This document shows, in pieces, positions 46,200-62,350 of a stretch of DNA of 64,000 nt (positions within the stretch are counted from its first letter, which is position 1; each line of letters begins with the position of its first letter). The position numbers and the translations under genes are program-made. A model generated the notes under the pieces. The model made no database searches and had not been told where the DNA came from. It saw only the letters and a program-made list of their open reading frames with translations. The stretch comes from Balneolales bacterium ANBcel1 (GTDB lineage Bacteria; Bacteroidota; Rhodothermia; Balneolales; Natronogracilivirgulaceae): the NCBI GenBank assembly GCA_029688905.1, contig JARULB010000002.1:310001-374000 (forward strand). The letters are read 5' to 3'.

Positions 46200-46718
46200 T
46201 CAGCCGTGCCTTCCGAAATCATCTTTCAGTCGAACAATATCGTTTTCGTCGGAGGGGTTTTTCGGATCGGTGTGGCGCCAGATCTCGGCGATTACGCCCC
46301 ACTCTCCCGTCCCGATCAGTCGGTGTCTCTGCCCCTGCTCAATTTCAATGACCATACCGGGTCCGGTCTCATCTGCCTCCTTTTCCTCATCCGTATCGCT
46401 TATGGCAATAACGGCACTGCCTCCAATCACCTTCCAAATCTCCGATCGCCGGTGGTGGTACTGCCACGACAACCGCTTCCCCGGAGCGACCATCAATATC
46501 TTCGGGCTAAGTTTCTTAAACCCTCTGAAATCATCCATTCCCAGATGTGGGAAAAAAGTCCGAATAAACAGGTCGGCCTGTGACTCAACGATGACATAGT
46601 ACCCGCCCCAGGGACGGGTATCGTCATAGGTATCGATACGCAGCCCAAGATCGTCCAGAACCCCCTGAACCCGTGAAAACACCTCCGGCCTTTTTGTATC
46701 GGCTGGAATGTCTATCAT
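46200..46718 (-). CDS. Mannose-6-phosphate isomerase type II-like cupin
   Basis: 172 residues from the ATG at 46718 (a TTG at 46748 would add ten residues). It resembles the C-terminal cupin domain of the type II PMI/GDP-mannose pyrophosphorylase: RPWGGYYVIVES, APGKRLSWQYHHRRSEIWKV with metal-binding histidines, and GQRHRLIGTGEWGVIAEIW. Stand-alone cupins of this kind are predicted to interconvert mannose-6-P and fructose-6-P, but are sometimes annotated as phosphoheptose isomerases. Its position 93 bases after the phosphomannomutase gene supports a mannose role. Confidence 0.78.
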   Translation of the reverse strand: MIDIPADTKRPEVFSRVQGVLDDLGLRIDTYDDTRPWGGYYVIVESQADLFIRTFFPHLGMDDFRGFKKLSPKILMVAPGKRLSWQYHHRRSEIWKVIGGSAVIAISDTDEEKEADETGPGMVIEIEQGQRHRLIGTGEWGVIAEIWRHTDPKNPSDENDIVRLKDDFGRHG

Positions 46719-46841
46719 ATTATCTTTCAATTCTCTAACCTCCTTCAATGAACAAATGTTCTATTGTTTTTATGTATGCTTAATCCCGGCAATTAGTGCT
46801 GCTGCAATACCGTGCCGGCACATCCGATGCACTTGAACGGA

Positions 46842-48224
46842 CTACTCGGGACCGTTCCGGATCTTTTCTTCGAGCTCGTCTTTTTTCTGCTCCATAAGCA
46901 GGCGATCGCCTCTGGATTCCACATTCAGCCGCAGCAGCGGCTCGGTGTTTGATACCCGCAGACTGAATCGCCAGTCGGGAAACGTGACACTGAGTCCGTC
47001 GGGTGACGTCACTTCCCCTCCCTGCCGTTCGTACTTCTCCGCGATTTGCTTCACCAGCTTGCCCGCGTCTCCGTCGATCCGGTAGTTGAGCTCTCCGCTG
47101 ACCGGATAACGGTGAAAGGCTTCATCCACCAGCGCCGAAAGCTTCTTGCCGGACTGGCTCATCAGCTCGAGCATCAACAGAAACGGCAGGATACCCGAGT
47201 CGCAGTACCAGAAATCCCGGAAATAGTGGTGCGCGGACATCTCACCTCCGTAAGCCGCCGCCTCCTTTCGCATAAGCTCCTTGATGAAGGTATGGCCTGT
47301 CTTACTCTGAACGGGCTGTCCACCCAGCTTCTCAACGGTTTCAATGGTGTTCCAGGTCAGCCTGGGGTCATGCACTATCTTCGCGCCCGGGTATTTTTCC
47401 AGCATCTGCGCGGCCATCAGTCCGACGATATAGTAGCCCTCAACAAAGCGGCCGTTTTCGTCAAAAAAGAAACAGCGGTCAAAGTCGCCGTCAAAGGCAA
47501 CTCCGAGATCCGCCTTATTGGCAAGCACTGCATCGGCAGTATCCTGGCGGTTTTCCGGGAGAAGCGGGTTCGGCACCCCGTTGGGAAACCGGCCGTCGGG
47601 TTCAGAAAACATGGGAATCAGTGTACAGGGCAGTTTGTCGGCCAGCCGGCCGATCAGCGGGCCGGCGGCTCCGTTGCCCGAATTGACCACCACTTTCAGC
47701 CCTGAATCCAATTCCTGTGTCAGCATGTCACAAACATGGGAGAGGAATTCATCCGAGATATCCTTCCACTCACAGGCGCCCCTGCGCGACGAGCCCTTTC
47801 CGTCCACATGGTGAAACGGGCCCTCTTCGGCAATAAGAGTTTTGATATCATTGAGTCCATTTTCGGCTCCGACCGGACGTGCTCCCTCTACCACCATTTT
47901 GCATCCGTTGTATTCCATGGGATTATGGCTGGCGGTGATCATCAGGCCGCCATCCAGCCCATACGTTCCGGTAGCGAAATAGACCATTTCTGATCCACAG
48001 AGTCCAAGATCAAGCACATCCACCCCGGAATCGCAAAGGCCGTCGGAAAGCGCGTTTCTCAATTCTTCGCTGGAGAGGCGGGAATCACCGCCAATGACGA
48101 CTTTCCGCGGGGAAAACCGGGTCGCGAAGGCTTTTCCGAGTGTGTACATGAAGCGGGCATTGATCTGGTCGGGATAGATTCCCCGGATGTCATAGATCTT
48201 GAATGCTGAAACGTCGACAGGCAT
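46842..48224 (-). CDS. Phosphomannomutase/phosphoglucomutase
   Basis: 460 residues, full length. It shifts phosphate between C6 and C1 of mannose or glucose. The phosphoserine loop is TASHNP (Ser99); the Mg2+ loop is DGDFDR; the sugar-specificity loop is GGEMSAHHYF; the phosphate-binding C-terminal loop is RVSNTEPLLRL. The GEMSAHHYF form is that of dual-specific PMM/PGM (AlgC/ManB type). It leads to mannose-1-P for GDP-mannose. It lies between the ROK regulator and the cupin isomerase in the glycan island, all on the minus strand. Confidence 0.92.
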   Translation of the reverse strand: MPVDVSAFKIYDIRGIYPDQINARFMYTLGKAFATRFSPRKVVIGGDSRLSSEELRNALSDGLCDSGVDVLDLGLCGSEMVYFATGTYGLDGGLMITASHNPMEYNGCKMVVEGARPVGAENGLNDIKTLIAEEGPFHHVDGKGSSRRGACEWKDISDEFLSHVCDMLTQELDSGLKVVVNSGNGAAGPLIGRLADKLPCTLIPMFSEPDGRFPNGVPNPLLPENRQDTADAVLANKADLGVAFDGDFDRCFFFDENGRFVEGYYIVGLMAAQMLEKYPGAKIVHDPRLTWNTIETVEKLGGQPVQSKTGHTFIKELMRKEAAAYGGEMSAHHYFRDFWYCDSGILPFLLMLELMSQSGKKLSALVDEAFHRYPVSGELNYRIDGDAGKLVKQIAEKYERQGGEVTSPDGLSVTFPDWRFSLRVSNTEPLLRLNVESRGDRLLMEQKKDELEEKIRNGPE

Positions 48225-48300: not shown

Positions 48301-49539
48301 TTATTTGCCGTACGAACGAGCGAAGGTATCCGATGCAGGCCGATGCTGTTTCATCAACAGCTTCGGCAGCGGGGCGAAAGAGGTATAGAGGGGAAGTGTC
48401 GCTACACCCAGAGCGGCTGCGTCGATGCCGGCCGATGCGATTTGAAACTCCGGACGTGTGGTTTTACGGTCGATGCGATGTGGCGGAAGGGACTCTTCCA
48501 GCTTGTTCAACAGGGATTTCAGCATCGGATCCGGCAAGCGACCGCCAAAAAAAATCACTTCCGGGTCAATCAGATATTCGATGGCGAGGATCAACGGCGT
48601 CAGAAAGCGCGTGCCGTCATCCAGCCACTCCAGCAGCACCGGGTTGTCCTTGTCGAAATAGTTCCGAAGTTCATCCAGTGTGTTGATCGGATAGCCCGCC
48701 TCACGCAGCTTCTTCTGCAGCATGGGCATATTGAAAAAACCGCCCAGATGGTCGTGTTCGTACCCGCCGTTTTCATCCATGAAAATGGGTGTGGGAAAAT
48801 ATCCGAGCTCCCCGGCATTGCCGGTGTGACCGGAATAGAGCTGCCCGTTGATGACCAGGCCGCCGCCAAGTCCGGCACCAAAATAGGTATAAAAGAACGA
48901 CCGGATGTGCTTCGCGTTGCCGTACCAGTGTTCTCCCATGGCTGCCGCCGAAGCGTTGTTTTCCAGTACCACCGGTAGTCCCAGCCGTTCCTCCAGCCGT
49001 TTCACCACAGGGACGTTTTCCCATCCCGGCAGGGCTTCCGGATTGGCGAGATTCACAAGACCTTTGTCGCTGGAAGAGGCCATGGGTCCGGGAAGCACCA
49101 CTCCGACACCCCACACTCTGTCCCGTTCAACTCCTTCCGCCTCAATGAGATCATTGGTAGTATCGCACATTCTGTCGATGGCCTCGTCCGGAGATGGAAA
49201 GAGCAGGTCGATATTTGTGCGCTGGCAAATCTGACCGTTCAGGTTGAGCATGACCGCGGTCATGTGATCCCGGTCAAAATCAATGCCTATGGAATAAGCG
49301 GCGGTTTCATTCAACTTCAGCATAATGGAGGGTGCTCCCCGCCCGTCCTGGCACCGGGAATCCTCGAGCACCAGATCCGCCTGCATCAGTTTTTTTGTGA
49401 TGTTGGTTACCGTTTGAGCGGTCAGCTGGGTACGCCTGGCGATATCAACACGCGAAAGGGGTCCATACAGCCGGATCGTCTCCAGAACAATGCGGTTATT
49501 GAATGAATTCGCATACTGTAAATTGGTGCCAACCAACAT
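48301..49539 (-). CDS. ROK family transcriptional regulator
   Basis: 412 residues. An N-terminal winged helix (LSRVDIARRTQLTAQTVTNITKKLMQ, about residues 30-58) precedes a ROK sugar-binding fold. The phosphotransfer Asp of ROK kinases is Asn (LENNASAAAMGE) and the ATP-loop DxG is FDRDH, so it should sense sugar but not phosphorylate it. The sugar-binding GHTGNAGELGY is kept, but the CxCGxxGC zinc site that normally follows is replaced by DENGGYEHDHLGG. A GAGG precedes the ATG. It is the only regulator in the island and the leading candidate for binding its palindromes. Confidence 0.9.
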   Translation of the reverse strand: MLVGTNLQYANSFNNRIVLETIRLYGPLSRVDIARRTQLTAQTVTNITKKLMQADLVLEDSRCQDGRGAPSIMLKLNETAAYSIGIDFDRDHMTAVMLNLNGQICQRTNIDLLFPSPDEAIDRMCDTTNDLIEAEGVERDRVWGVGVVLPGPMASSSDKGLVNLANPEALPGWENVPVVKRLEERLGLPVVLENNASAAAMGEHWYGNAKHIRSFFYTYFGAGLGGGLVINGQLYSGHTGNAGELGYFPTPIFMDENGGYEHDHLGGFFNMPMLQKKLREAGYPINTLDELRNYFDKDNPVLLEWLDDGTRFLTPLILAIEYLIDPEVIFFGGRLPDPMLKSLLNKLEESLPPHRIDRKTTRPEFQIASAGIDAAALGVATLPLYTSFAPLPKLLMKQHRPASDTFARSYGK

Positions 49540-49729: not shown

Positions 49730-51145
49730 TCACGGCTCCACACCCTTCTCTTCCCTTCGGTTTTCAAGTTCGGTGGTGATTTCAGCCATCCGGGTTTCGT
49801 CCAGTCTGTAGAAAAAGATGAACAGCGCGGAGACCAGCGCACCGGCGGCCGGAATCCAGCTCATCAGGGTACGAATACCCATGAGGGCGGTATCGGTCTG
49901 CGCCACTCCTGCCTGGTAACCGAATACGGCAAGCATGTAACCGAGCATGGCCGATCCGAGTGTCCATCCAAACTTCTGCGAGGTGGTATAGGAGGAGAAG
50001 ATAAGTCCGGTCGCCCTTCTGCCCTGCTTCCACTCGTTGTAATCGGCGGCGTCGGCGTACATGGATATCAACAGCGGCAGAATCAGACCGGCGTTAAAAC
50101 TGATGATGATCTGCAGTGCGAACATAAGCCAGATCTGGTTACTCCCGAGAAAGAAGAAAAATATGCTCGCAACAGCTGCGATGGCCATGGATGCCATGTA
50201 GGCACGTCTTTTGCCAATCCATCCGGCAAACGTAACGGCGAACAGAACACCGAAAAGGTTGGCAGCCTGACCGATTACCATGAAAAAGGAGCTGAAGGGA
50301 TAGGCCATATCCAGCCATGCGATGTTGATCACCCCCTCTGTTTCCACATAGTAGCGGAAATAGTAGATGATGGTTCCGTCCCGAACGGCGTTGAAAATAA
50401 GTGTAAAAATTCCGGCGCCTACCAGCAGCCACCACTGATTGTTGGCGATCAGATCTTTGAGATCCAGCTTCAGGTTGGTCTGCTGCGACTTCAGCGGCAG
50501 TACCCGCTCTTTTGTGGTGAAGAAGGAGATATAGACGAAAATTACGAACAGCACACCGATTACAACCATGGCCATCTGCCAGCCAAAGGCCTCGGCACCC
50601 GCACCCGTGCTCAACCCCGAGAAGAAGATGGCAAGAGGCTCAACAATGGCCAGTACCAGAAGGCTGCCAGCAAAGGCAAACAGAAAGCGGTAGCTGCCCA
50701 GCTTCGTTCGTTCTTTCGGGTTGGGAGACATGACCCCGAGCAGCGCACCGTAAGGGACATTCACCACGGTGTAGGCCATCATCATAAACAGGTAGGTGAT
50801 GTAGGCATAAACCAGTTTGCCGGTATAGCCGAAGTCGGGTGTAGTAAAGGTAAGCACTCCAATTACAGCAAACGGTATGGCGAACCAGAGCAGATAGGGC
50901 CGGAACTTTCCGTATTTGGTGCTGGTCCGGTCGGCGATGACTCCCATGATGGGATCGTTGGCCGTATCCCAGATGCGGGTGACCAGCAAAAGCGTACCGG
51001 CAGCGGCGGCGGTGATGCCGAAAATATCGGTGTAAAAATAGACCAGGTACATGGTGAAGATCTTCCAGTACATGGAACAGGCGGCATCGCCGAAACCATA
51101 CCCGACCTTCTCCTTCAGACTAAGTTTATGCGTTTTTGGATCCAT
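49730..51145 (-). CDS. GPH-family (MelB-like) sugar:cation symporter
   Basis: 471 residues, about 12 helices. Galactoside-pentoside-hexuronide symporters take up di- and oligosaccharides with Na+ or H+. The N-terminal LSLKEKVGYGFGDAACSMYWKI and NDPIMGVIADRTSTKYGKFRPYL are hallmarks. In the homologous mannan locus of Bacteroides fragilis a symporter of this type is encoded beside mannobiose 2-epimerase. It starts 18 bases after the GH9 stop, so it is on the same transcript. Specificity for mannobiose or cellobiose is inferred from the neighbours. Confidence 0.9.
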   Translation of the reverse strand: MDPKTHKLSLKEKVGYGFGDAACSMYWKIFTMYLVYFYTDIFGITAAAAGTLLLVTRIWDTANDPIMGVIADRTSTKYGKFRPYLLWFAIPFAVIGVLTFTTPDFGYTGKLVYAYITYLFMMMAYTVVNVPYGALLGVMSPNPKERTKLGSYRFLFAFAGSLLVLAIVEPLAIFFSGLSTGAGAEAFGWQMAMVVIGVLFVIFVYISFFTTKERVLPLKSQQTNLKLDLKDLIANNQWWLLVGAGIFTLIFNAVRDGTIIYYFRYYVETEGVINIAWLDMAYPFSSFFMVIGQAANLFGVLFAVTFAGWIGKRRAYMASMAIAAVASIFFFFLGSNQIWLMFALQIIISFNAGLILPLLISMYADAADYNEWKQGRRATGLIFSSYTTSQKFGWTLGSAMLGYMLAVFGYQAGVAQTDTALMGIRTLMSWIPAAGALVSALFIFFYRLDETRMAEITTELENRREEKGVEP

Positions 51146-51163: not shown

Positions 51164-54100
51164 CTATTTAACCAGCATCATCTGCCGGGATTGAACGAAG
51201 CTGCCGGATGTAATCCGGTAGAGATAAACGCCCGATGCCAATCGGGATGCATCAAAGAGTATTTTGTGGCTGCCGGCGGGCATAACGCCGTCCATCAGAA
51301 CGGCAACTCTACGGCCAAGCATATCATAAACGACCAACTGCACGTGTTCCTGTACAGGCAGGTCGAAACCGATCACCGTAACCGGGTTAAACGGATTGGG
51401 ATAGTTCTGCTCCAGGGAGTAAACTTCCGGCACCCCGGCTTCGTCTCCGGTTGAGGTCACTTCCTGCCCCTCACCTCTTACCGCCAGATAGGCAATATCG
51501 ATACTTCCATCCTGCGCTTGCAGAAGTATGCTGTTCTCGCCGCGGTTCAACATGACCCCCGAAAAGTCCCGGTAGTGCCACTCCCCCTGAGTACCGCTCA
51601 GCCGCTCCCTGAGTTCCAACCTGGGTGGATACCTCACTCTCAATGTTGCCGCCGTGTTACCCGGCAGCCGGTACCCAATCCGGATATCATAAGCTCTGCG
51701 CTCACCCGCCAGAATCCGATCCCAGAGAAGTGACCCGTTGTCTCCGGTTCGAACAAAAACCCCGTCGCGAGCCGTATCATCGGGCAGCAGTTCGGCCCCA
51801 CCGGACAGGCTCGCCGAAGCCACCTCATACCAGCGTGTATCCGGAACCTCCACAACCGTTAATTCGGGTGCACGGGATTGTATTTCAAAATGATCGTCCG
51901 TTACCCGAACCGATATGGTGTAGGATCCCGGTTCACCGGCAGTCCACTCGTATTCAAATGGTTCTGATGTCACATCAGCTACCGGCTCCCCGTTGATGAG
52001 GAACCAGGCTTCAGGCTGTCCGGAGTTTCCCGGTGTGATGTCTGCGACAAACCTGACCACCGTGCCGGTTTCCGCCTCCTGACCGTCTGCGGGAGCCAAC
52101 AGCGTTACCGCGGGCGGCTGCCTCTCCGACTCCAGGCCGTAAACCTCCAGCTCACTGAGCCGTAACGGCTCACCATCAACACTTTGTGGAGCGGAAACAC
52201 GGACAAACCGGCCGGATACGGGTGTTTCGCCGATATGCTCATCCGTTCCACCGCCACCATCCTGAACCTCATGGAGAGGTGTCCACCGGACGCCGTCGAA
52301 AGAGACCAGAACATCATAGCGAGAAGCGTAACCACTGTCGGCCCAGCCCAAAACCACCCGCCGGATGTCGAACGCTTTCAGTAGATCAACTTCGATCCAG
52401 GCATCACCGGCGGAATCGGCAATCCAATAGGTGTCCGCTATCCCGTCAATTACATTTTCCGGACCATTGCCCGTCCGGGAGGATGAAGCCTGGGCAGTGC
52501 CTGCCGAGGCCCGGTTGAATTTCTCCGGAGGGACCACATTGATCGTTACCCTGGCTGTATCGGCTTCGCCTCCCTCACCAGTAGCAATTAACACATATTC
52601 GGTGGTATCGGCTGGCTGGACCATCCGTGACCCTGACTGCGGTACCTGTTCACCATTCAGGGTAACGGCTTGGGCACCTGTCGCCGACCAAATCAGCTCC
52701 GCTGAATCATTCTCAATGATCAACAGAGGATGTGCCGACAACCGCGCACGCGTGCGTTGTTCCGTCTCCTGCCTGATCGCGTCAATGGCCCCGGCGACAT
52801 AGACCAGCGGGGCATTCCAGTTGATGGCTACCTCGTTGGTGGCATAGCTGCACCAGTCATCGACGTACGAAAGTGCGGGCAGATCCGAGGGGTAGTTGCA
52901 GCCGTCCTGCTGGCCCGAATGCGGACCGCCGACCACCAATCCGGGTACGGGGGCATCATGGCTGTGAGCGGCGGATGGCCGGTGATGCGGGTCCATAGGC
53001 GTGCGGCTGCCGATACCCGTTACAAAAGAGTATCCGGTAGGATTTCGTCCCAACACATAGTCCAGATTGGCCTGTGCGGCATCGAGCATGGACCCGTTGC
53101 CGGTGAGCCGGTATCCCTGCAAGAGCATCAGCGAGTGATTAAGGGCGACACTGTTGCTGCCCCATACAAAATCACCGCCGCCCCGATACCCCATACTCAT
53201 CAAGTAGGCAGAGTTGCTGTGCGCATTGAGCAGTTCATTGGCCATCTGTTCGATTCGGCCGGTAATATGGCCCACATTCGCGGCCGGTGTGAGTCTGTCG
53301 CGGTGATGGGCCAGCGATACCCAGGCCAGCGGCCTTACCTGCGGCCAGGCGGGGATAGTAATACCGTGAACATTGCCCAGGTTGCGGGCATGCCAGTAAC
53401 TGTCGTCGCCGGTGGTGATGTAGAGTTCGGCGGCGGCCCAGTCGAATTCATCGCTAACGTTCGAATCACCGTATTCGCCGGTCACAATATCGGGAGAGTG
53501 CTCCTGGTTCATGGCATCCTGACGATAGTAGAGATTCGGATGTTCCAGAGCCCATTGCCAGGCAAATTCGGCGGCAGCCAGCGCTCGTTCGGAAAAACCC
53601 CTGTCATACGGACGATAAACCCGGGAAGCCACCGCCATCACCCCGGCAAAATTGAGTGTGGCGGCCGTTGATTTCTGAACCGCGTACCGGGCGCTATTAT
53701 CCTGATGCGGCATGATGATTCCCGAGAACTGCGGCGAGGTCAATTTGTGGTACACCCCGCCGTCGTGCGGGTCTTGCATGGTGATCATCCAATCCAGGTT
53801 CCACCGGAGCTCATCCAGGATATCCGGAACTCCCGACCCGCTTTCCGGAATATTTACCGTCAGCTCCTCAAAATAGTTCGGGAAATGCTCATAGGCCGCC
53901 AGCATTGTGTAGGTGGTGATTCCCGAATTGACGATATATTTGTTAAAATCGCCGGCGTCGTACCATCCTTTGGAGGAGGAAAAGGTATAGCCCACCGGGC
54001 GATGTTCGGTTGCCGCCGAGGAGTGGATCATCGCATTGTCGTCGGGATGCCCCATGGGGCGAGCCCAGGGTCCGGCGTACGGCTCGGTAATCTCCGTGGA

Positions 54101-54520
54101 TGCCCGGTTGAAATAGTAGGCCTTGAGTGCGGACCTGGAAACCTCCGTCAAGACCTCTTCACTGATCTCAAACGGATGGGATTCACCCAGATCAGGGTGC
54201 TCAATCCGATAGGTTCCGGGGGTACTCAAGTCGGTAAAAAGCGCATGGAGTACTGTTTCGTCGGAGTGCTCCCAGTAAAGCCCGTCCCCGCCAAGTAATG
54301 CTCCCGTAAATACCGTGTCACCGCTCTCTACATCAACAATTTGGTATTGCGATGTCGTCAGAACCGAACCGTTGACCGGCACAACAGCCAGTTTATCTGC
54401 ATCAGGGTGATACCCCGCCTGATTCACCTTGAAGGGGCGGTAGGCCTCGGCGGATGTCCAGGCTGCGGATAAAAGAATTGCGGCCAGCAACATGGAAGCA
54501 ATTTGAAATAGCAGGCGCAT
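51164..54520 (-). CDS. Modular GH9 endoglucanase-like enzyme with T9SS sorting domain
   Basis: 1118 residues from the ATG at 54520. The signal peptide ends TSAEA. Domains in order: CelD_N Ig-like (~25-120, FKVNQAGYHP); GH9 (~130-600), with the DAGD pair in GWYDAGDFNKY (Asp188, Asp191) and the C-terminal NEVAINWNAPLVYVAGAI with the acid glutamate; an Ig-like piece (~610-680); a discoidin/CBM32-like domain (~690-800, VIDGIADTYWIADSAGDAWI); another Ig-like domain (~810-890); a CBM6/35-like domain (~890-1010); then the type A sorting domain (LEQNYPNPFNPVTVIGFDLP to the final QMMLVK). GH9 enzymes cleave beta-1,4-glucan, some glucomannan or xyloglucan. It should be exported and anchored at the surface or released. 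Confidence 0.92.
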   Translation of the reverse strand: MRLLFQIASMLLAAILLSAAWTSAEAYRPFKVNQAGYHPDADKLAVVPVNGSVLTTSQYQIVDVESGDTVFTGALLGGDGLYWEHSDETVLHALFTDLSTPGTYRIEHPDLGESHPFEISEEVLTEVSRSALKAYYFNRASTEITEPYAGPWARPMGHPDDNAMIHSSAATEHRPVGYTFSSSKGWYDAGDFNKYIVNSGITTYTMLAAYEHFPNYFEELTVNIPESGSGVPDILDELRWNLDWMITMQDPHDGGVYHKLTSPQFSGIIMPHQDNSARYAVQKSTAATLNFAGVMAVASRVYRPYDRGFSERALAAAEFAWQWALEHPNLYYRQDAMNQEHSPDIVTGEYGDSNVSDEFDWAAAELYITTGDDSYWHARNLGNVHGITIPAWPQVRPLAWVSLAHHRDRLTPAANVGHITGRIEQMANELLNAHSNSAYLMSMGYRGGGDFVWGSNSVALNHSLMLLQGYRLTGNGSMLDAAQANLDYVLGRNPTGYSFVTGIGSRTPMDPHHRPSAAHSHDAPVPGLVVGGPHSGQQDGCNYPSDLPALSYVDDWCSYATNEVAINWNAPLVYVAGAIDAIRQETEQRTRARLSAHPLLIIENDSAELIWSATGAQAVTLNGEQVPQSGSRMVQPADTTEYVLIATGEGGEADTARVTINVVPPEKFNRASAGTAQASSSRTGNGPENVIDGIADTYWIADSAGDAWIEVDLLKAFDIRRVVLGWADSGYASRYDVLVSFDGVRWTPLHEVQDGGGGTDEHIGETPVSGRFVRVSAPQSVDGEPLRLSELEVYGLESERQPPAVTLLAPADGQEAETGTVVRFVADITPGNSGQPEAWFLINGEPVADVTSEPFEYEWTAGEPGSYTISVRVTDDHFEIQSRAPELTVVEVPDTRWYEVASASLSGGAELLPDDTARDGVFVRTGDNGSLLWDRILAGERRAYDIRIGYRLPGNTAATLRVRYPPRLELRERLSGTQGEWHYRDFSGVMLNRGENSILLQAQDGSIDIAYLAVRGEGQEVTSTGDEAGVPEVYSLEQNYPNPFNPVTVIGFDLPVQEHVQLVVYDMLGRRVAVLMDGVMPAGSHKILFDASRLASGVYLYRITSGSFVQSRQMMLVK

Positions 54521-54622
54521 GGGCAATGGTGAATTTTTGAGATGGATACCTGGTCGGTGTGTTAAAAAAAGTCGGTAGAACTATAGTCAATAGGCAATTG
54601 AGAGTTGACTGAAATCGCCGGC

Positions 54623-55795
54623 CTAATCATACATATCCGGGAGATCGTTTTCAAACAGTACAACCGGGTGCCTGTGAAACTCCACAAAATTCTCGGCGCT
54701 GATTTGCCCGGGAAACGGCGCGTAGTAGTGGTCGCGGTTTTCCCGCTCGAAGTTGGCGTTTCTCCAGACCTGGACATAGGCGATTTGCCGGGTGAGATCG
54801 TCGGTCAGGATCGGCTCGAGCAGCTCGCGGGTCCACCAATAAGGATCCGGGATGGCCTCCTTCCCTGTTTCGGTAAGCGCGGGCAGCTTGTTGCGTTCAT
54901 TGGCGATTTCTACGGTATACCGGAGGGTGCGGATACGGTGCTCGCGCTGCCGTTCTTCCGGGGTATCGTTGGCAGGGTGACCGTAATCCCAGTAGTTGTC
55001 GATGCCTATGATGTCCACATACGCGTCACCGGGATATCCGTACATGTAGTCTTCATGAAACCGGTCGATATCCATCCGGCTGCGGTCCGGCGAAAAGGCA
55101 TAGAGCAGGTTGTCGACCTGGTGCTCATCCCGGAGATATTCCACCGTGAACCGCCACAAGGCGATGAATTCCTCTTCGGTACAAAGTCCCTTCCCCCACC
55201 AGAACCAGTCACCGTTATGCTCGTGATACGGCCGAAAAATAATCGGAATGGGAGCCAGTTCCCGGAAAAAGGCGGCGATATAGTCCAGGTCGGCCCGGTA
55301 CTGATCGTGCCGGTCACCACCAGGGATGATCTCCGACACCGCGCGGGTGGTATCGTAAAATGAACCCCCGGTTACGGGATTGGATTTGTGCCACGCATAG
55401 GTAATAACCCCGCCACGTTCAAAGCCGGAGCGTACCCAGGCAATTGATTGCCGCGTGTGTTCTGCAATATCCTCTTCCGTGAAATGACTCCGGTAAAAAT
55501 CGGCGATATCCCATCCGTAGATAGCCGGAAACGAGCCGGTCACCGATTTCACATCGGAGCGCTCCTCGCCGGAGTCAAGCTCACTGTGGTGCCAGTGATA
55601 GCCGTAGGCCAGGGTAGCCTGATGACCGAACAGGAGGTGATCATGACGCATCTCCATAAGGTTGGCGTACAGGTTGCGAGTCTGCTCATTGGCATTCGGG
55701 TCAACCAGGGTATAGGTCCCGGTGCCGACACGTTCAGAGCATGATGCCAAAAGCATCACAATTAAGGTGATAAACAGTGGTTCTATGATTCGCAT
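54623..55795 (-). CDS. GH26 beta-mannanase lipoprotein
   Basis: 390 residues. A lipobox LLASC (Cys19) makes it an envelope lipoprotein. The GH26 fold has the acid/base Glu192 in IFRPYHEHNGDWFWWG and the nucleophile Glu309 in ALTETGKEA; the HTRQSIAWVRSGFERGGVIT and GSFPAIYGWDIADF stretches are typical of mannanases. It cuts beta-1,4-mannan or glucomannan internally or releases mannobiose. It starts 74 bases after the epimerase stop and is followed by GH9 after about 100 bases. Confidence 0.93.
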   Translation of the reverse strand: MRIIEPLFITLIVMLLASCSERVGTGTYTLVDPNANEQTRNLYANLMEMRHDHLLFGHQATLAYGYHWHHSELDSGEERSDVKSVTGSFPAIYGWDIADFYRSHFTEEDIAEHTRQSIAWVRSGFERGGVITYAWHKSNPVTGGSFYDTTRAVSEIIPGGDRHDQYRADLDYIAAFFRELAPIPIIFRPYHEHNGDWFWWGKGLCTEEEFIALWRFTVEYLRDEHQVDNLLYAFSPDRSRMDIDRFHEDYMYGYPGDAYVDIIGIDNYWDYGHPANDTPEERQREHRIRTLRYTVEIANERNKLPALTETGKEAIPDPYWWTRELLEPILTDDLTRQIAYVQVWRNANFERENRDHYYAPFPGQISAENFVEFHRHPVVLFENDLPDMYD

Positions 55796-55869: not shown

Positions 55870-57135
55870 TCAAGGGAGTTCCACGGGCAAATGTTTTTTG
55901 GAGTGGAGGATGGTAAACGGCGTATTCCCTGCGGTATCCATGGCCAGTGCCGTATACAGCAGGCAGGTACGAGATGTGTGATAGGGGCATTTCCAGGGGC
56001 CGGCCTTATGGTCTGAGAGATCGGGTTTACCTGCAGCATCCAAACGGAAATACCATTCTCCGTTTTCGCGGTCGACAAAATGTTTCTTTGTGAAATCCCA
56101 AACCCTTTCCGCTTCGGAGATATATTTCTCATCTGCGCTCAGCAGATACGCGTAAAGATATCCGGTAAGCGCTTCGGCCTGTGCCCACCACTGTTTGCCG
56201 GCATCCGCCACATCTCCCCTTTCACCCGTGTCGCAGATTCCACCCGGTGCGGGATCGCTTCCCTCGGTTATGGTGATGTCGGCCAGGTCAAACAGAATCT
56301 TGCTGCATGACTCCAGCTGATCGTTGTTACCGATTTCAGCCGCGGCATCGTATAACAGCCAGGCCGCCTCAATATCGTGCCCATAGGAGTAGCGCGGAGA
56401 GACGGGGTTCAGGTTCTCATCAAAATAGGAGAGAATGTGCCGGCTGTCGGCGTCATACATGGAATCGATGTGGATAGCAATCAGTTCCGCCAGGCGATCT
56501 TTCAGGAGATCATCCGGCCGGGCGCGATACAGATGCGTAAATGCCTCCAGTAGATGCAGATGGGTGTTGAATGTCCGGGCGGCATGGATGTCATTCGAGC
56601 CCAGCCGGGTATCGTCCATCGGCTGCCAGTCATTTGAAAAAGCCTCGTGGTAACCGGTTCCGTCATCCCTGTACGCATGCTTTTCGATCAGATCGAACAG
56701 GGAATCGGCCAGGGCAAGAGCCTGATCATCCCGGCAGGCCAGATAATACTCGGCCAGTCCGTATATCGCGAACGCCTGGGTATAAATATGTTTGCGGTTG
56801 TCCCGAACGGTGCCGTCTCCGGCAACCGACCAGAAGATACCTCCATGAACCGGATCCCAAAAATCGTTACGCACCGTAAGCAACGCGCGCCGGGCCAGGA
56901 CAAGATAGGAAGGATCCCGAAGCAGCCGGTACGCCGCGGAGAAGGTCCACAGAATCCGGGTATTCAAAACACCGGATTTGTCGGACGCAACCGGATCAGC
57001 CTGATGATCCAGCGCCCCGTGAAAACCTCCACCATGATCATCGATCATCCTGTTCATCCAGAATGGAAGAATATGCTGCTGCAACTCGTCGGAAAGTTCG
57101 TCCGACAACCGCGCCAATTTATGCTGAAGTGACAT
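55870..57135 (-). CDS. Cellobiose/mannobiose 2-epimerase (AGE family)
   Basis: 421 residues, cytosolic, an (alpha/alpha)6 barrel. It epimerises the reducing-end glucose or mannose of beta-1,4 disaccharides. The catalytic histidines are visible: His253 in SYGHDIEAAWLL and His386 in WKCPYHTSRTCLL, the same pattern as in characterised cellobiose 2-epimerases; WWAQAEALTGYLYAY is also diagnostic. In known mannan catabolism this enzyme makes 4-O-beta-mannosyl-glucose for the GH130 phosphorylase, which is not in this window. First gene of the minus-strand island, divergent from the GH5 gene. Confidence 0.92.
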   Translation of the reverse strand: MSLQHKLARLSDELSDELQQHILPFWMNRMIDDHGGGFHGALDHQADPVASDKSGVLNTRILWTFSAAYRLLRDPSYLVLARRALLTVRNDFWDPVHGGIFWSVAGDGTVRDNRKHIYTQAFAIYGLAEYYLACRDDQALALADSLFDLIEKHAYRDDGTGYHEAFSNDWQPMDDTRLGSNDIHAARTFNTHLHLLEAFTHLYRARPDDLLKDRLAELIAIHIDSMYDADSRHILSYFDENLNPVSPRYSYGHDIEAAWLLYDAAAEIGNNDQLESCSKILFDLADITITEGSDPAPGGICDTGERGDVADAGKQWWAQAEALTGYLYAYLLSADEKYISEAERVWDFTKKHFVDRENGEWYFRLDAAGKPDLSDHKAGPWKCPYHTSRTCLLYTALAMDTAGNTPFTILHSKKHLPVELP

Positions 57136-57240: not shown

Positions 57241-57253
57241 AATCAATTTGATT
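57241..57253. promoter_or_regulatory. Operator candidate AATCAATTTGATT
   Basis: An inverted repeat AATCAA-T-TTGATT. It is the exact reverse complement of the copy at 57382-57394. The flanks (TTAAATC... ...TTTAAAAT) extend the symmetry. It is 105 bases before the epimerase ATG on the minus strand. A dimeric repressor is the likely ligand, possibly the ROK regulator of this island. Confidence 0.6.
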
Positions 57254-57381
57254 TAAAATATGCAAATTAAAACCGCTTTTTTAAAATTATTTTTCGGTAT
57301 TTCGCAAAAGAGACCGCCGGCATACCGTGAAGGGACTTTTCTTTTCAGAGGAACCGGAAGCAACCCGGGAAATTATTATTC

Positions 57382-57394
57382 AATCAAATTGATT
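57382..57394. promoter_or_regulatory. Operator candidate AATCAAATTGATT
   Basis: AATCAA-A-TTGATT, flanked as TTC...TAA so that TTnAATCAAnTTGATTnAA is symmetric over 19 bases. Spaced 141 bases from its partner site (start to start), which would allow looping or simply the separate control of each promoter. Confidence 0.6.
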
Positions 57395-57423
57395 TAATAC
57401 TCAAAAAGCGATAGGTTCTCTGG

Positions 57424-57433
57424 AAAGCGCTTT
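57424..57433. promoter_or_regulatory. Palindrome AAAGCGCTTT upstream of the GH5 gene
   Basis: A perfect 10-bp palindrome with GCGC centre, in GGAAAGCGCTTTTATTC, 41 bases before the GH5 ATG at 57475. LacI-family operators often have this form. No LacI gene lies in the window. Confidence 0.45.
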
Positions 57434-57474
57434 TATTCAGGATGAACTACCAACCGCAACCAAACACCACATCC

Positions 57475-58860
57475 ATGAAAATTACCCGCCTGTCCCTCAA
57501 GGTTTTTTCCCGCAGATTCAGTCGTTTATCACTGATGGCCTGTTTTCTTGTCATATCCTTCACCTCCCTTGCATGCGAGTCCGGGTCAGGCAATATGGAT
57601 GAAAGTGCGGATCAGTCCGGCACTACTCCGTTCGTAGAGGTTCGGGACGGCAACTTTTTTATTGGTGATGACCCCTACTATTTTATCGGATTCAATTACT
57701 GGTATGGCATGAACCTCGGGGCCGACCTGCAGGATGGGGATTACGAGCGTCTGGTCCGGGAACTGGATCATCTTCAGGAACTCGGAGTGGACAACCTTCG
57801 GGTTCTGGCCGCAAGCGAGGGTCCGGATGACGCGGGCTGGCGCGTGGTACCGAGCTCCCAACCGGAGCCGGGCGTTTACAATGAAGATGTAATTCGCGGT
57901 CTGGATGTACTGCTTGACGAAATGGCCAAACGTGACATGCGCGCCGTGCTGGTTCTTAACAACTTTTTCCAGTGGTCGGGCGGCATGGCTCAGTATGTGT
58001 CGTGGGTGACCGGAGAACCCTATCAGTTTCCCTTTTTGGGGGAATATACCTGGGACGAATACCAGACCTTCGCCAACCGTTTCTACGCCCTTCCCGAAGC
58101 GCGGGAACTGTTCAAGGACAAGGTTCGCCATCTGCTCACCCGAACCAATACCGTGAATGGCCGCGCCTATACGGATGACCCGACCATCATGTCGTGGCAG
58201 CTGGCCAATGAACCGCGTGAATTCGGTTATGTGGAGGAGTATGTCGATTGGGTGAAGGCCACCTCCGACCTGATTAAATCTCATGCTCCCAACCAGCTGG
58301 TGTCTCTCGGTGGTGAAGGCAAATTGCTCCGCCGCCACAATATGGACACCCGTTTTGAGCAGCTCGCACAAAGCGATGCCCTGGACTATCTCACCATCCA
58401 TCTCTGGATTGAAAACTGGAGCCTGTACGACCCGGCCGGTGATCCCGAAGGTACCTTCATGCACGCCATAGGCAAATCCATGGGATACATCGCCGACCAT
58501 GTTGCCATTGCCGAACAGGTCGGAAAACCGGTCGTGCTGGAAGAGTTCGGAGTCTCCAGAGACGGGCTGGATCACGACCCCTCCGCACCGGTAACCTACC
58601 GCGACCAGTATCTGGAAGTGATTTTTGAGGCAACCCACCACCTCGCCCAGGAGCGATCCGCTTTTGCCGGCCTGAATATCTGGACCTGGTCGGGCGAAGG
58701 CTATCCGGAAGTGCCCGGCGAATACTGGGAACCAGGCCGCACCCTCACCGGCGATCCGCCCCATGAATACCAGGGCTGGTACGGTATCTATGAACAGGAC
58801 GAGTCTACCCTGGAACTGATCCGCACCTACAACGAACGTATCAACGCACTGTTCCACTGA
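57475..58860 (+). CDS. GH5 beta-mannanase-like lipoprotein
   Basis: 461 residues from the ATG at 57475; the ATG at 57442 would add 11 residues. A basic start, a hydrophobic stretch and lipobox SLAC (Cys34) mark a lipoprotein. Acid/base Glu246 lies in MSWQLANEPREF and the nucleophile Glu357 in VVLEEFGVSRD; the FIGFNYWYGMN and VDNLRVLAASEG segments match the mannanase-type GH5 subfamily (GH5_7). It should cut beta-1,4-mannan or glucomannan. It is divergent from the minus-strand operon and is preceded by the palindromes. Confidence 0.88.
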   Translation: MKITRLSLKVFSRRFSRLSLMACFLVISFTSLACESGSGNMDESADQSGTTPFVEVRDGNFFIGDDPYYFIGFNYWYGMNLGADLQDGDYERLVRELDHLQELGVDNLRVLAASEGPDDAGWRVVPSSQPEPGVYNEDVIRGLDVLLDEMAKRDMRAVLVLNNFFQWSGGMAQYVSWVTGEPYQFPFLGEYTWDEYQTFANRFYALPEARELFKDKVRHLLTRTNTVNGRAYTDDPTIMSWQLANEPREFGYVEEYVDWVKATSDLIKSHAPNQLVSLGGEGKLLRRHNMDTRFEQLAQSDALDYLTIHLWIENWSLYDPAGDPEGTFMHAIGKSMGYIADHVAIAEQVGKPVVLEEFGVSRDGLDHDPSAPVTYRDQYLEVIFEATHHLAQERSAFAGLNIWTWSGEGYPEVPGEYWEPGRTLTGDPPHEYQGWYGIYEQDESTLELIRTYNERINALFH

Positions 58861-58941: not shown

Positions 58942-59086
58942 AATATTATGAAGTCTGCCGGATCCTGTATGCAAATGTGAGCCGCTGTCCGCTTTCAGGT
59001 TGTACCCAGGGGTCTTCCACCCTGTTACTTATGAACTTCCCTGCCGGACGGGCAGCAAAAACCGAATACATCAAACCCTCCACCCC

Positions 59087-62000
59087 ATGACACATCTTCT
59101 ACCGCGGTTTTTAATCCTTCTTCTGTCGCTTGCGGCAACGACGCTGCCTTCACTACCTGTACAGGCCCAGGAAAAGCACCCCGGACGCGTACATCTGTCA
59201 CAGCTTCCAGCATGGCAAAATCCCGAAATATTCGGAATCAACAAGGAACCCGGCCGCGCCCATGCCATGCCTTACGGCACGATCGAGGAGGCACTGGACG
59301 ACGACGGGGATTTCTACAACTCGAAGTATCACCGTTCATTGAACGGCTACTGGAAGTTCCATCTCGCCGACAATCCATTTGCCGCTTCTCCCGATTTTCA
59401 CGAACCCGGCTTCAGCGACAGTAACTGGGACCGTATTGCCGTTCCATCTTACTGGCAGACTGAAGGATATGGACAGGCTATCTACCTCAACAGCATCTAC
59501 CCTATTGATTCCATTATGGGCGGACTGTTCCCCCCCATGGTTCCCGTTGAGAATAACCCCACCGGGCTCTACCGTCACCGTTTTGATCTTCCCGCCGACT
59601 GGGACGGCCGCGAAGTGTTCATCCGCTTCGATGGTGTTCGCAGCGGCTTCTATCTCTGGATTAACGGTGAGAAAGTGGGATACAGCCAGGGAAGCATGAC
59701 CCCCGCCGAATTCAACATTACCCCGCACCTGCAGCCGGGAGAAAATTCCATCGCGGCAAAGGTAATCCGCTGGACCGACGGCAAGTGGCTGGAGGATCAG
59801 GACATGTGGCGCATGAGCGGCATCTTTCGCGATGTTCACCTCTACTCCACCCCGCAGATGTACCTGCAGGATTTCTTTGTAAACGCCGGTCTGGATACCG
59901 ATTACCGACATGGCGTCCTGGAAGTAACAACAAAAGTCCGGAATAACAGCGGCGCGGTCCGGTATCCCGCCAACGTAGAGGTCTATCTGTTTGACGGCCG
60001 CAACAACCCGGTCGGCCAGGGGCCGTTGGCCGAAGCATACACCGAAGACCCCATGCCGCCCGGCACCATGGCTGTGGCCCGGATGCGCACAACTGTCGAA
60101 AACGCGAAGCACTGGTCAGCGGAAACCCCCTATCTCTATACCGTTGTGCTTGCTCTCAGGGACAGCGACGGAGAGCTGCTGCAGACGGTGAGAACCCGAG
60201 CCGGATTCCGAACCTATGAAATCCGGGACGGGGTGTTTCTGGTGAATGGCGAAGAGGTCAGACTCAAAGGCGCAAACCTCCACGAACACGACCCGCACAA
60301 AGCCCATACCGTCGATCCCGACTGGATCCGGAAAGACTATCGCCTGATGAAACAAAGCAACATGAATGCGGTGCGCATGGCCCACTATCCCCACAGCCGT
60401 CATTACTACGAATTGGCCGACAAATACGGGCTCTATGTGATGGATGAAGCCAACGTGGAGACTCACGGCATCTCCTTCCGCCGCAATCTCATTCCCGGAA
60501 GCGATCCGATGTGGACCATGGCCACGCTCGAGCGGATGCGGCGCATGGTCGAAATCCACAAGAACTATCCGTCGGTGGCGATATGGTCACTTGGCAACGA
60601 AGCCGGTCACGGTGACAACTTCTCCAAATCGGCTGCACTGATCCGCTCCATGGATCCGAGCCGCCCGATTCACTATCAGCATATGAATGAAATCGCCGAC
60701 ATGGACAGCTACATGTACCCGCCGCCGGGCAGTGTCCGCGACATTCTGGCCACCATGCCTTCCAACCGGGCTCTGATCCTGTGCGAAATGGCCCACTCCA
60801 TGGGCAACTCCACCGGTAACATGATGGAATACATGGAACTGCTCGAAAACCACCGCAATTACATCGGTACGTTTATCTGGGACTGGGTCGATCAGGGCCT
60901 CTATGAAGAGGATGAACAGGGCAACATGTTCTGGGCCTACGGCGGCGATTACGGCGACTACCCGAACGATGGCAATTTCAATATCAACGGACTGGTGATG
61001 CCCGACCGAACTCCGCAGCCCGCCCTCAAACAGGTGAAATACGCTTACCAGCATGTGACGATTTCTGCCGCCGACCTCCGGAACGGCACTGTTTCGCTGA
61101 CCAACCGCTACTCGCACATCGCCCTCGACCGCTTCTACCTGCATTGGGAACTGAAGGAGGATGGAATCGTGCTTCAGTCAGGGCAAAAGGAGCTTTCCGG
61201 CATAGAGCCTGGAGAAAGAGTAACCGTAACGCCGGATTTTGAAAAACCGGAGCTGCGGCCCGGACGCGAGTACTGGCTGAATGTCAGTTTGCATCTCAAT
61301 GCAGACGAGGCCTGGGCCGACGCCGGTCACCGGATAGCCTGGGAGCAGTTTGCCTTGCCCTGGCCAACACCCCCGGCCCTTCGCCAGAAGCCCGGTGATA
61401 TGGCGACTCCCGCCGTAACAATGGATGGCGACAGCTTTGTATTGCAAAGCGATGATACCCGCATCCGTATTTCCAGGGAGAGCGGAGAAATGACCTCTCT
61501 GCGTCACAATGGCCGGGAGTTGCTGGTGGGACCGTTAAAGCTCAATTTCTGGAGGGCTCCGACCGACAACGACATGGCGGGATGGGGCGATGTGCTCGAT
61601 CCCTGGAAAACCGCCTTTGCAGAGCGATCCGTAGATCGTGTTGAGATTGTTTCGCAGACAGATGCCGCGATAGCGATTCTCGCGGAGGGGCGTCTGTCCG
61701 TTGGCTCATCCACCTTCCAAACCCTTTACACATTCTGGGGGAATGGGGTGATGCAGGTCGAAGCGCACATCCACCCGCTCGGTGACGTGCCCGAAGCCAT
61801 TCCCAGAATCGGCATGGAGTTGCGCATTCCGGCCGATTATCACACCATGACCTGGTACGGCCGCGGTCCCGAGGAGAACTACCAGGATCGCAACCGGGGC
61901 ATCAATATCGGGGAGTACACCGGATCTATTCCGGAACTGGTTACGCACTATGTGATGCCCCAGGAAAATGCCAACCGCACCGATGTTCGTTGGACCGGTT

Positions 62001-62350
62001 TCACCAACGATGAAGGCCAAGGTCTGCTGGCTGCCGGAATGCAGGAGCTGAACGTAAGCGCCTGGCCATACAGCCTTCAGGACCTTGAAAAGGCCACCCA
62101 TGTAAACCGGCTGCCCGTCAGAGACTTTTTCACGGTTAATATCGACTACAAACAGCAGGGTGTCGGTGGAATTAACTCATGGACCGAACTGGCCCGCGCA
62201 ATGGAGCCTTACCGGCTGCCCGCATCCCGCCCCTATTCGTATGGGTTCTATCTGATACCGCTGGATCCGTCTTCGGGTGATATGAGAGACCTGGCCCGTA
62301 CGCTGCCACCTAAATCACTCGATCAATTACCGGTACAGGGCGATCATTGA
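59087..62350 (+). CDS. Secreted LacZ-type GH2 beta-galactosidase
   Basis: 1087 residues from the ATG at 59087, chosen because it gives a proper signal peptide (FLILLLSLAATTLPSLPVQAQ); the frame runs 29 codons further upstream. Domains: jelly-roll sugar-binding (~60-230, SLNGYWKFHLADNP), Ig-like (~245-340), TIM barrel with acid/base Glu505 in WSLGNEAGHGDN and nucleophile Glu567 in LILCEMAHSMGN, and a C-terminal small-chain domain (LNFWRAPTDNDM). This is the LacZ group, so beta-galactoside cleavage is the best guess; a beta-mannosidase role is less likely. A periplasmic place is inferred. Confidence 0.92.
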   Translation: MTHLLPRFLILLLSLAATTLPSLPVQAQEKHPGRVHLSQLPAWQNPEIFGINKEPGRAHAMPYGTIEEALDDDGDFYNSKYHRSLNGYWKFHLADNPFAASPDFHEPGFSDSNWDRIAVPSYWQTEGYGQAIYLNSIYPIDSIMGGLFPPMVPVENNPTGLYRHRFDLPADWDGREVFIRFDGVRSGFYLWINGEKVGYSQGSMTPAEFNITPHLQPGENSIAAKVIRWTDGKWLEDQDMWRMSGIFRDVHLYSTPQMYLQDFFVNAGLDTDYRHGVLEVTTKVRNNSGAVRYPANVEVYLFDGRNNPVGQGPLAEAYTEDPMPPGTMAVARMRTTVENAKHWSAETPYLYTVVLALRDSDGELLQTVRTRAGFRTYEIRDGVFLVNGEEVRLKGANLHEHDPHKAHTVDPDWIRKDYRLMKQSNMNAVRMAHYPHSRHYYELADKYGLYVMDEANVETHGISFRRNLIPGSDPMWTMATLERMRRMVEIHKNYPSVAIWSLGNEAGHGDNFSKSAALIRSMDPSRPIHYQHMNEIADMDSYMYPPPGSVRDILATMPSNRALILCEMAHSMGNSTGNMMEYMELLENHRNYIGTFIWDWVDQGLYEEDEQGNMFWAYGGDYGDYPNDGNFNINGLVMPDRTPQPALKQVKYAYQHVTISAADLRNGTVSLTNRYSHIALDRFYLHWELKEDGIVLQSGQKELSGIEPGERVTVTPDFEKPELRPGREYWLNVSLHLNADEAWADAGHRIAWEQFALPWPTPPALRQKPGDMATPAVTMDGDSFVLQSDDTRIRISRESGEMTSLRHNGRELLVGPLKLNFWRAPTDNDMAGWGDVLDPWKTAFAERSVDRVEIVSQTDAAIAILAEGRLSVGSSTFQTLYTFWGNGVMQVEAHIHPLGDVPEAIPRIGMELRIPADYHTMTWYGRGPEENYQDRNRGINIGEYTGSIPELVTHYVMPQENANRTDVRWTGFTNDEGQGLLAAGMQELNVSAWPYSLQDLEKATHVNRLPVRDFFTVNIDYKQQGVGGINSWTELARAMEPYRLPASRPYSYGFYLIPLDPSSGDMRDLARTLPPKSLDQLPVQGDH

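Follow-up and report, generated by a model that had tools for sequence, protein, structure and literature searches.

Candidate operators of ROK-family regulators predict a beta-mannan regulon in Balneolales

Among the closest described systems is ManR of Thermotoga, a ROK regulator of mannan and mannoside hydrolases and of uptake, as proposed for the locus described here (PMC3750489). The effector of Thermotoga ManR is reported to be mannose (PMC3750489). NagC and Mlc of Escherichia coli have the same two-domain architecture as the regulator considered here and likewise use AT-rich palindromic operators. Described ROK operators are mostly T-rich in the left arm and A-rich in the right arm (PMC4856308). 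RokB of Streptomyces coelicolor also offers a parallel, since this ROK regulator has multiple sites in the genome, two of which lie in the divergent promoter of its own gene, but the sites are of the TTTGTTC-N11-GAACAAA type and the targets are amino-acid and antibiotic genes (PMC4856308). The ManR protein of Bacteroides thetaiotaomicron controls a mannose/mannoside regulon within the same broad phylum group. However, it belongs to the GntR family and concerns alpha-mannosides, and thus only the name is common (PMC3878776).

The locus examined here is a mannan island in a 64-kb window, meaning the whole stretch of 64,000 nucleotides that was analysed. The leftward arm, on the minus strand, begins with an AGE-family epimerase of the cellobiose/mannobiose 2-epimerase type (55870..57135; PF07221, best NCBIfam match EpiA). 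This gene is followed by those for a GH26 protein of the beta-mannanase family (54623..55795; PF02156), a GH9 protein with CBM-like domains and a T9SS sorting tail (51164..54526; PF00759, PF18962), a GPH-family sugar:cation symporter (49730..51145; PF13347, TIGR00792), the regulator ROK1 (48301..49539), its conserved neighbour phosphomannomutase (PMM; 46842..48224), and a PMI-like cupin related to mannose-6-phosphate isomerase (46200..46748; PF01050). The rightward arm, on the plus strand, carries a gene for a GH5-like lipoprotein (57475..58860; weak match to PF00150) and one for a GH2 protein of the beta-galactosidase type (59000..62350; PF02836, NF052611). The GH5 reading frame also opens at 57442, and the lipoprotein-type start is at 57475. 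The original prediction described a ROK-type protein as the only regulator in the island, which agrees with the genes identified there, but elsewhere in the genome there is a second ROK paralogue.

Two predicted operators are located in the divergent promoter between these arms. O1 (AATCAATTTGATT, 57241..57253) is in the leftward-arm promoter, at a distance of 105 bp from the start of the epimerase gene (57135). O2 (57379..57397) is a 19-bp palindrome whose core, AATCAAATTGATT, occupies 57382-57394, and this core is found upstream of the GH5 gene, 80 bp from the probable lipoprotein start (57475). Both 13-mers are present where the original prediction had placed them, and the symmetry over 19 bases that it described for the second site (TTnAATCAAnTTGATTnAA, 57379-57397) is correct. 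The pair is more compact than the 340 bases once given, with a start-to-start distance of 141 bp and both sites inside 154 bp. The sites share the core AATCAA-N-TTGATT, a 13-bp odd-length palindrome. Thus, the reverse-complement relation between the 13-mers, although true except for the central A/T pair, is automatic and adds nothing. Exact matches to AATCAANTTGATT in the window are confined to O1 and O2, and the claim that two copies are improbable by chance stands, given an order-2 Markov expectation of 0.003 per 64 kb. The same model predicts 0.14 exact core copies per 3.3 Mb, where five are observed. The fuller operator consensus, which has AT-rich symmetric flanks, is about TTAATnAATCAAwTTGATTnATTAA.

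The palindrome AAAGCGCTTT (57424..57433), which had been thought to join the two operators, is instead situated some 30 bp to the right of O2 rather than between the two sites, and is lost in the congener. It has 12 copies in the genome, compared with 8 for the reversed control. These copies, often in the form AAAAGCGCTTTT, are nearly always intergenic beside unrelated genes (window copy; L208-L217), and AAAGCGCTTT is thus an element of intergenic DNA in general in this genome, possibly marking the sites of a LacI-type or global regulator. An exact copy occurs within about 150 bp of 3 of 29 operator sites, and therefore some other regulator may overlap with these operators without linking O1 and O2.

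A pattern search of the 3.32-Mb genome identified five exact copies of the core, every one in promoter or intergenic DNA. In addition to O1 and O2 at the epimerase/GH5 divergent pair, they are found between the genes for ROK2 and GH130 (C2:97123), upstream of a TonB receptor gene (C2:104558), and between dnaG and a GH94 gene (C1:431263). This distribution, exclusively at promoters of beta-mannan or beta-glucan genes, differs from the random scatter that would have spoken against the original prediction. Three AT-flanked copies with one mismatch are located directly upstream of GH5 (C4), GH26 (C5) and GH9 (C6) genes, and the remaining one-mismatch copies are inside reading frames and have unrelated flanks. 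As judged from the sequence, each credible site in the genome adjoins a beta-mannan or beta-glucan gene, and the predicted regulon for beta-mannan use comprises some eight promoters. The genome-wide tally of one-mismatch sites (18 versus 1 for the reversed control) was dropped as evidence because the control is intrinsically rare and because a genome without this helix type (G002) still has 12.

A predicted operator of the regulon lies in the space shared by dnaG and the divergently oriented GH94 phosphorylase gene (L048:9264). The primase gene could therefore feel sugar regulation.

When sites are aligned towards the adjoining gene, 10 of the 23 have a TTG that precedes the core by exactly 12 nucleotides, whereas other offsets yield 0-2. 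At the leftward promoter, the -35-like sequence TTGCAT (57260..57265, minus strand) is positioned exactly 6 nucleotides upstream of O1 and is kept in the congener. This TTG resembles a -35 element 6 nucleotides from the operator, so the core would fill the spacer between -35 and -10, a position suited to a repressor. The TTG is absent at this offset in the other 13 sites, including O2, where no clear -35 is seen.

Conservation in relatives, on which the original prediction depended, is evident in the congener (G017), where the corresponding promoter between the divergent epimerase and GH5 genes has retained both sites. O1 is exact (L087:4792) and O2 has one mismatch (L087:4909), and the two sites fall in the two best conserved blocks of this promoter. 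In other families, sites are mostly 150-400 bp from a ROK gene and adjoin GH26, GH5 or TonB genes. When gapped palindromes were counted de novo, AATCAA-1-TTGATT ranked highest, with occurrences in 11 of 15 ROK neighbourhoods, compared with 4 for the runner-up and a maximum of 2 after shuffling.

Our order-wide survey covered 129 genomes, of which 27 carry a ROK of this kind (E below 1e-90). In the ROK-bearing genomes, 12 of 32 exact sites are within 5 kb of the ROK gene (about 0.1 expected) and 16 are within 10 kb (about 0.2 expected). Exact sites in coding DNA make up 21 of 28 in ROK-less genomes but only 1 of 20 in ROK genomes (Fisher P 1e-6), where P values are descriptive because site lists and groupings were chosen during the analysis and related genomes are non-independent. 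The sole coding site in the latter group falls within a called GH26 reading frame, the start of which has probably been set too far upstream. Genomes with a ROK of this helix average 2.0 exact sites, versus 0.58 for those without ROK. The GH130 genes of several more distant ROK-bearing genomes have no site directly upstream.

The ROK encoded on a contig (L098) from a MAG labelled Parcubacteria is almost the same as that of a Balneolaceae contig (L097), and L098 is probably misbinned. Likewise, nearly identical mannan loci occur in MAGs labelled Balneolaceae and Rhodothermaceae (L099, L101), reflecting either a labelling error or transfer.

The ROK1 protein has a C-terminal ROK domain (PF00480, 124.7 bits, residues 84-382) preceded by an N-terminal winged helix-turn-helix, for which MarR-type matches to residues 18-60 fall slightly below the Pfam cut-off. 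It matches solved ROK proteins over its full length, and its N-terminus aligns with 7rhe, 1z05 and Mlc. The catalytic Asp of the kinase END motif is changed to Asn (NNAS) in all 13 clade members, whereas 7rhe and 2hoe retain END. By these domain tests, ROK1 is a ROK-family regulator and not a sugar kinase, and the presence of candidate palindromic sites at promoters is as expected for such a regulator. The region of ROK1 after GELGYF contains no Cys that could form the zinc-binding cluster seen in many members of the family. This cluster is not universal in ROK proteins, and its absence does not exclude membership. ROK1 also matches the NagC and Mlc profiles, but at 101.8 versus 650 bits and 91.6 versus 530 bits it is far below the respective equivalog cut-offs. 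Thus, by score, it is not an orthologue of either protein.

The paralogue ROK2 (G000:C2:95744) is 62% identical to ROK1 and is encoded beside the GH130 site. Both proteins carry the recognition helix TAQTVTNITKKL, and they differ in the wing, where ROK2 has GPGAP and ROK1 shares GRGAP with most outgroups. In the tree, ROK1 and ROK2 separate inside a family whose outgroups carry the motif. Both proteins may plausibly bind O1 and O2. No site occurs within 1.5 kb of the ROK1 gene, so regulation of ROK1 itself would depend on O1, at the head of a long series of co-directional genes whose gaps include one of 191 bp. The ROK2 gene of this genome (L046:9745-10956) stops at a TAG about 8 residues before the ROK1 alignment ends.

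Relatives of ROK1 with a TVQ helix are associated with another palindrome. ATTACA-N6-TGTAAT occurs once upstream of the TVQ-helix ROK gene or its PMM neighbour in 7 of 8 such loci. In these seven genomes the sequence ATTACATGTCCCTGTAAT is invariant, including its centre (L052:2785, L053:9305, L054:126, L055:3452, L056:1546, L057:10032, L061:1697), and it is likely a different operator or leader element. One genome (G009, L052) carries both ROK types side by side, each next to its own motif. We tentatively suggest that, in a PMM-linked branch arising after duplication (genera g3 and g5), the helix changed from TQLTAQTVTN to THLTVQTVTN as the operator changed from AATCAA-N-TTGATT to ATTACA-N6-TGTAAT, although the odds are somewhat against this scenario. 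If true, the G009 pair would be a natural example of regulator-operator co-evolution, and duplicated ROKs with two operator types would offer a compact test of specificity change.

The motif, its genome distribution, its conservation, its co-location with ROK genes and the -35 geometry are all read directly from the DNA. They argue with high confidence for a model in which AATCAA-N-TTGATT with AT flanks is the operator of a Balneolales ROK clade that includes ROK1 and ROK2, and in which a sugar releases repression of the regulon. Binding itself, the repressing sign of control and the identity of the effector are inferred as follows. A ROK dimer would place one winged helix on each half-site. 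At the epimerase promoter, ROK bound between -35 and -10 would block RNA polymerase, and an equivalent block would operate through O2 at the GH5 promoter. The other copies would put GH130, TonB receptor, GH94, GH5, GH26 and GH9 genes under the same switch. An entering mannan-derived sugar (mannose, mannobiose or glucosyl-mannose) would bind the ROK domain and free the operator, inducing the whole regulon. Gene content and comparison with Thermotoga ManR (PMC3750489) make mannose or a mannan disaccharide the probable effector.

Several other explanations were weighed against this model. Chance palindromes would be favoured by the AT-rich nature of the divergent intergenic stretch (GC 0.40), but only about 0.00008 exact copies are expected there against the two present. 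Together with conservation in the congener and the regulon-specific distribution in the genome, this refutes a chance origin of O1 and O2, to which we assign a negligible probability. A more serious alternative, though we consider it unlikely, is that these are real mannan operators for which ROK2 (C2:95744) is the working repressor, with ROK1 having another role or motif. The ROK2 gene is 147 bp from an exact site and sites also adjoin the orthologous genes of G009 and G017, while ROK1-clade genes beside PMM are without adjacent sites and the TVQ-helix relatives have their different conserved palindrome upstream. However, ROK1 of the window has the same TAQ helix as ROK2 and the motif-bearing outgroups and keeps the wing of those outgroups, and its gene sits in the arm read from O1. 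Moreover, in G001, where the only ROK protein found is of the ROK1 clade, a site with one mismatch and a TTG -35 is retained upstream of GH130.

The motif might instead bind an unlinked regulator of a different kind, with ROK genes merely being common residents of mannan loci. LacI-family genes are present near some loci (G018 L060, G002 L053), and six LacI-type genes exist in the genome. Yet ROK is the sole regulator identified beside the sites across several families, mostly at 150-400 bp (L097, L099-L101, L103, L151-L157), and the conserved motif changes where the ROK helix changes, making this possibility very improbable. Only marginally less improbable is a ROK that acts as an activator, or whose two sites cooperate through a DNA loop over the divergent promoter. 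DNA looping is known for NagC, and paired sites per divergent region also occur in the congener and in G018. Against this, 10 of 23 promoters have the core within the -35/-10 spacer, where it would block transcription, and many targets carry a single site. Cooperative looping was rejected on spacing, since O1 and O2 are 141 bp apart here and 117 bp apart in the congener, a 24-bp shift that does not equal whole turns.

The sugar-released repression model can be placed against the systems introduced above. In the literature searched, either 13-mer appeared in only three papers, titled for unrelated regulators and organisms, and no beta-mannan regulon of this kind was found for Balneolota. We therefore propose a concrete candidate operator and regulator pair for beta-mannan use in this phylum, one that would unite in a single pathway the dispersed genes for GH94 (beside dnaG) and for GH5, GH26 and GH9 (on other contigs). 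The predicted sites at GH26, GH5, GH130, TonB receptor and epimerase promoters resemble the targets of a ManR-like regulator. Unlike Thermotoga ManR, the system occurs in another phylum and has T9SS/TonB-type outer-membrane machinery, the epimerase, GH130 and GH94 among its predicted targets. Its compact AATCAA-N-TTGATT core also differs from the spaced T-rich and A-rich arms of NagC and Mlc operators (PMC4856308). Compared with these systems, the genomic evidence points to a new, well-supported regulon of a known ROK type.
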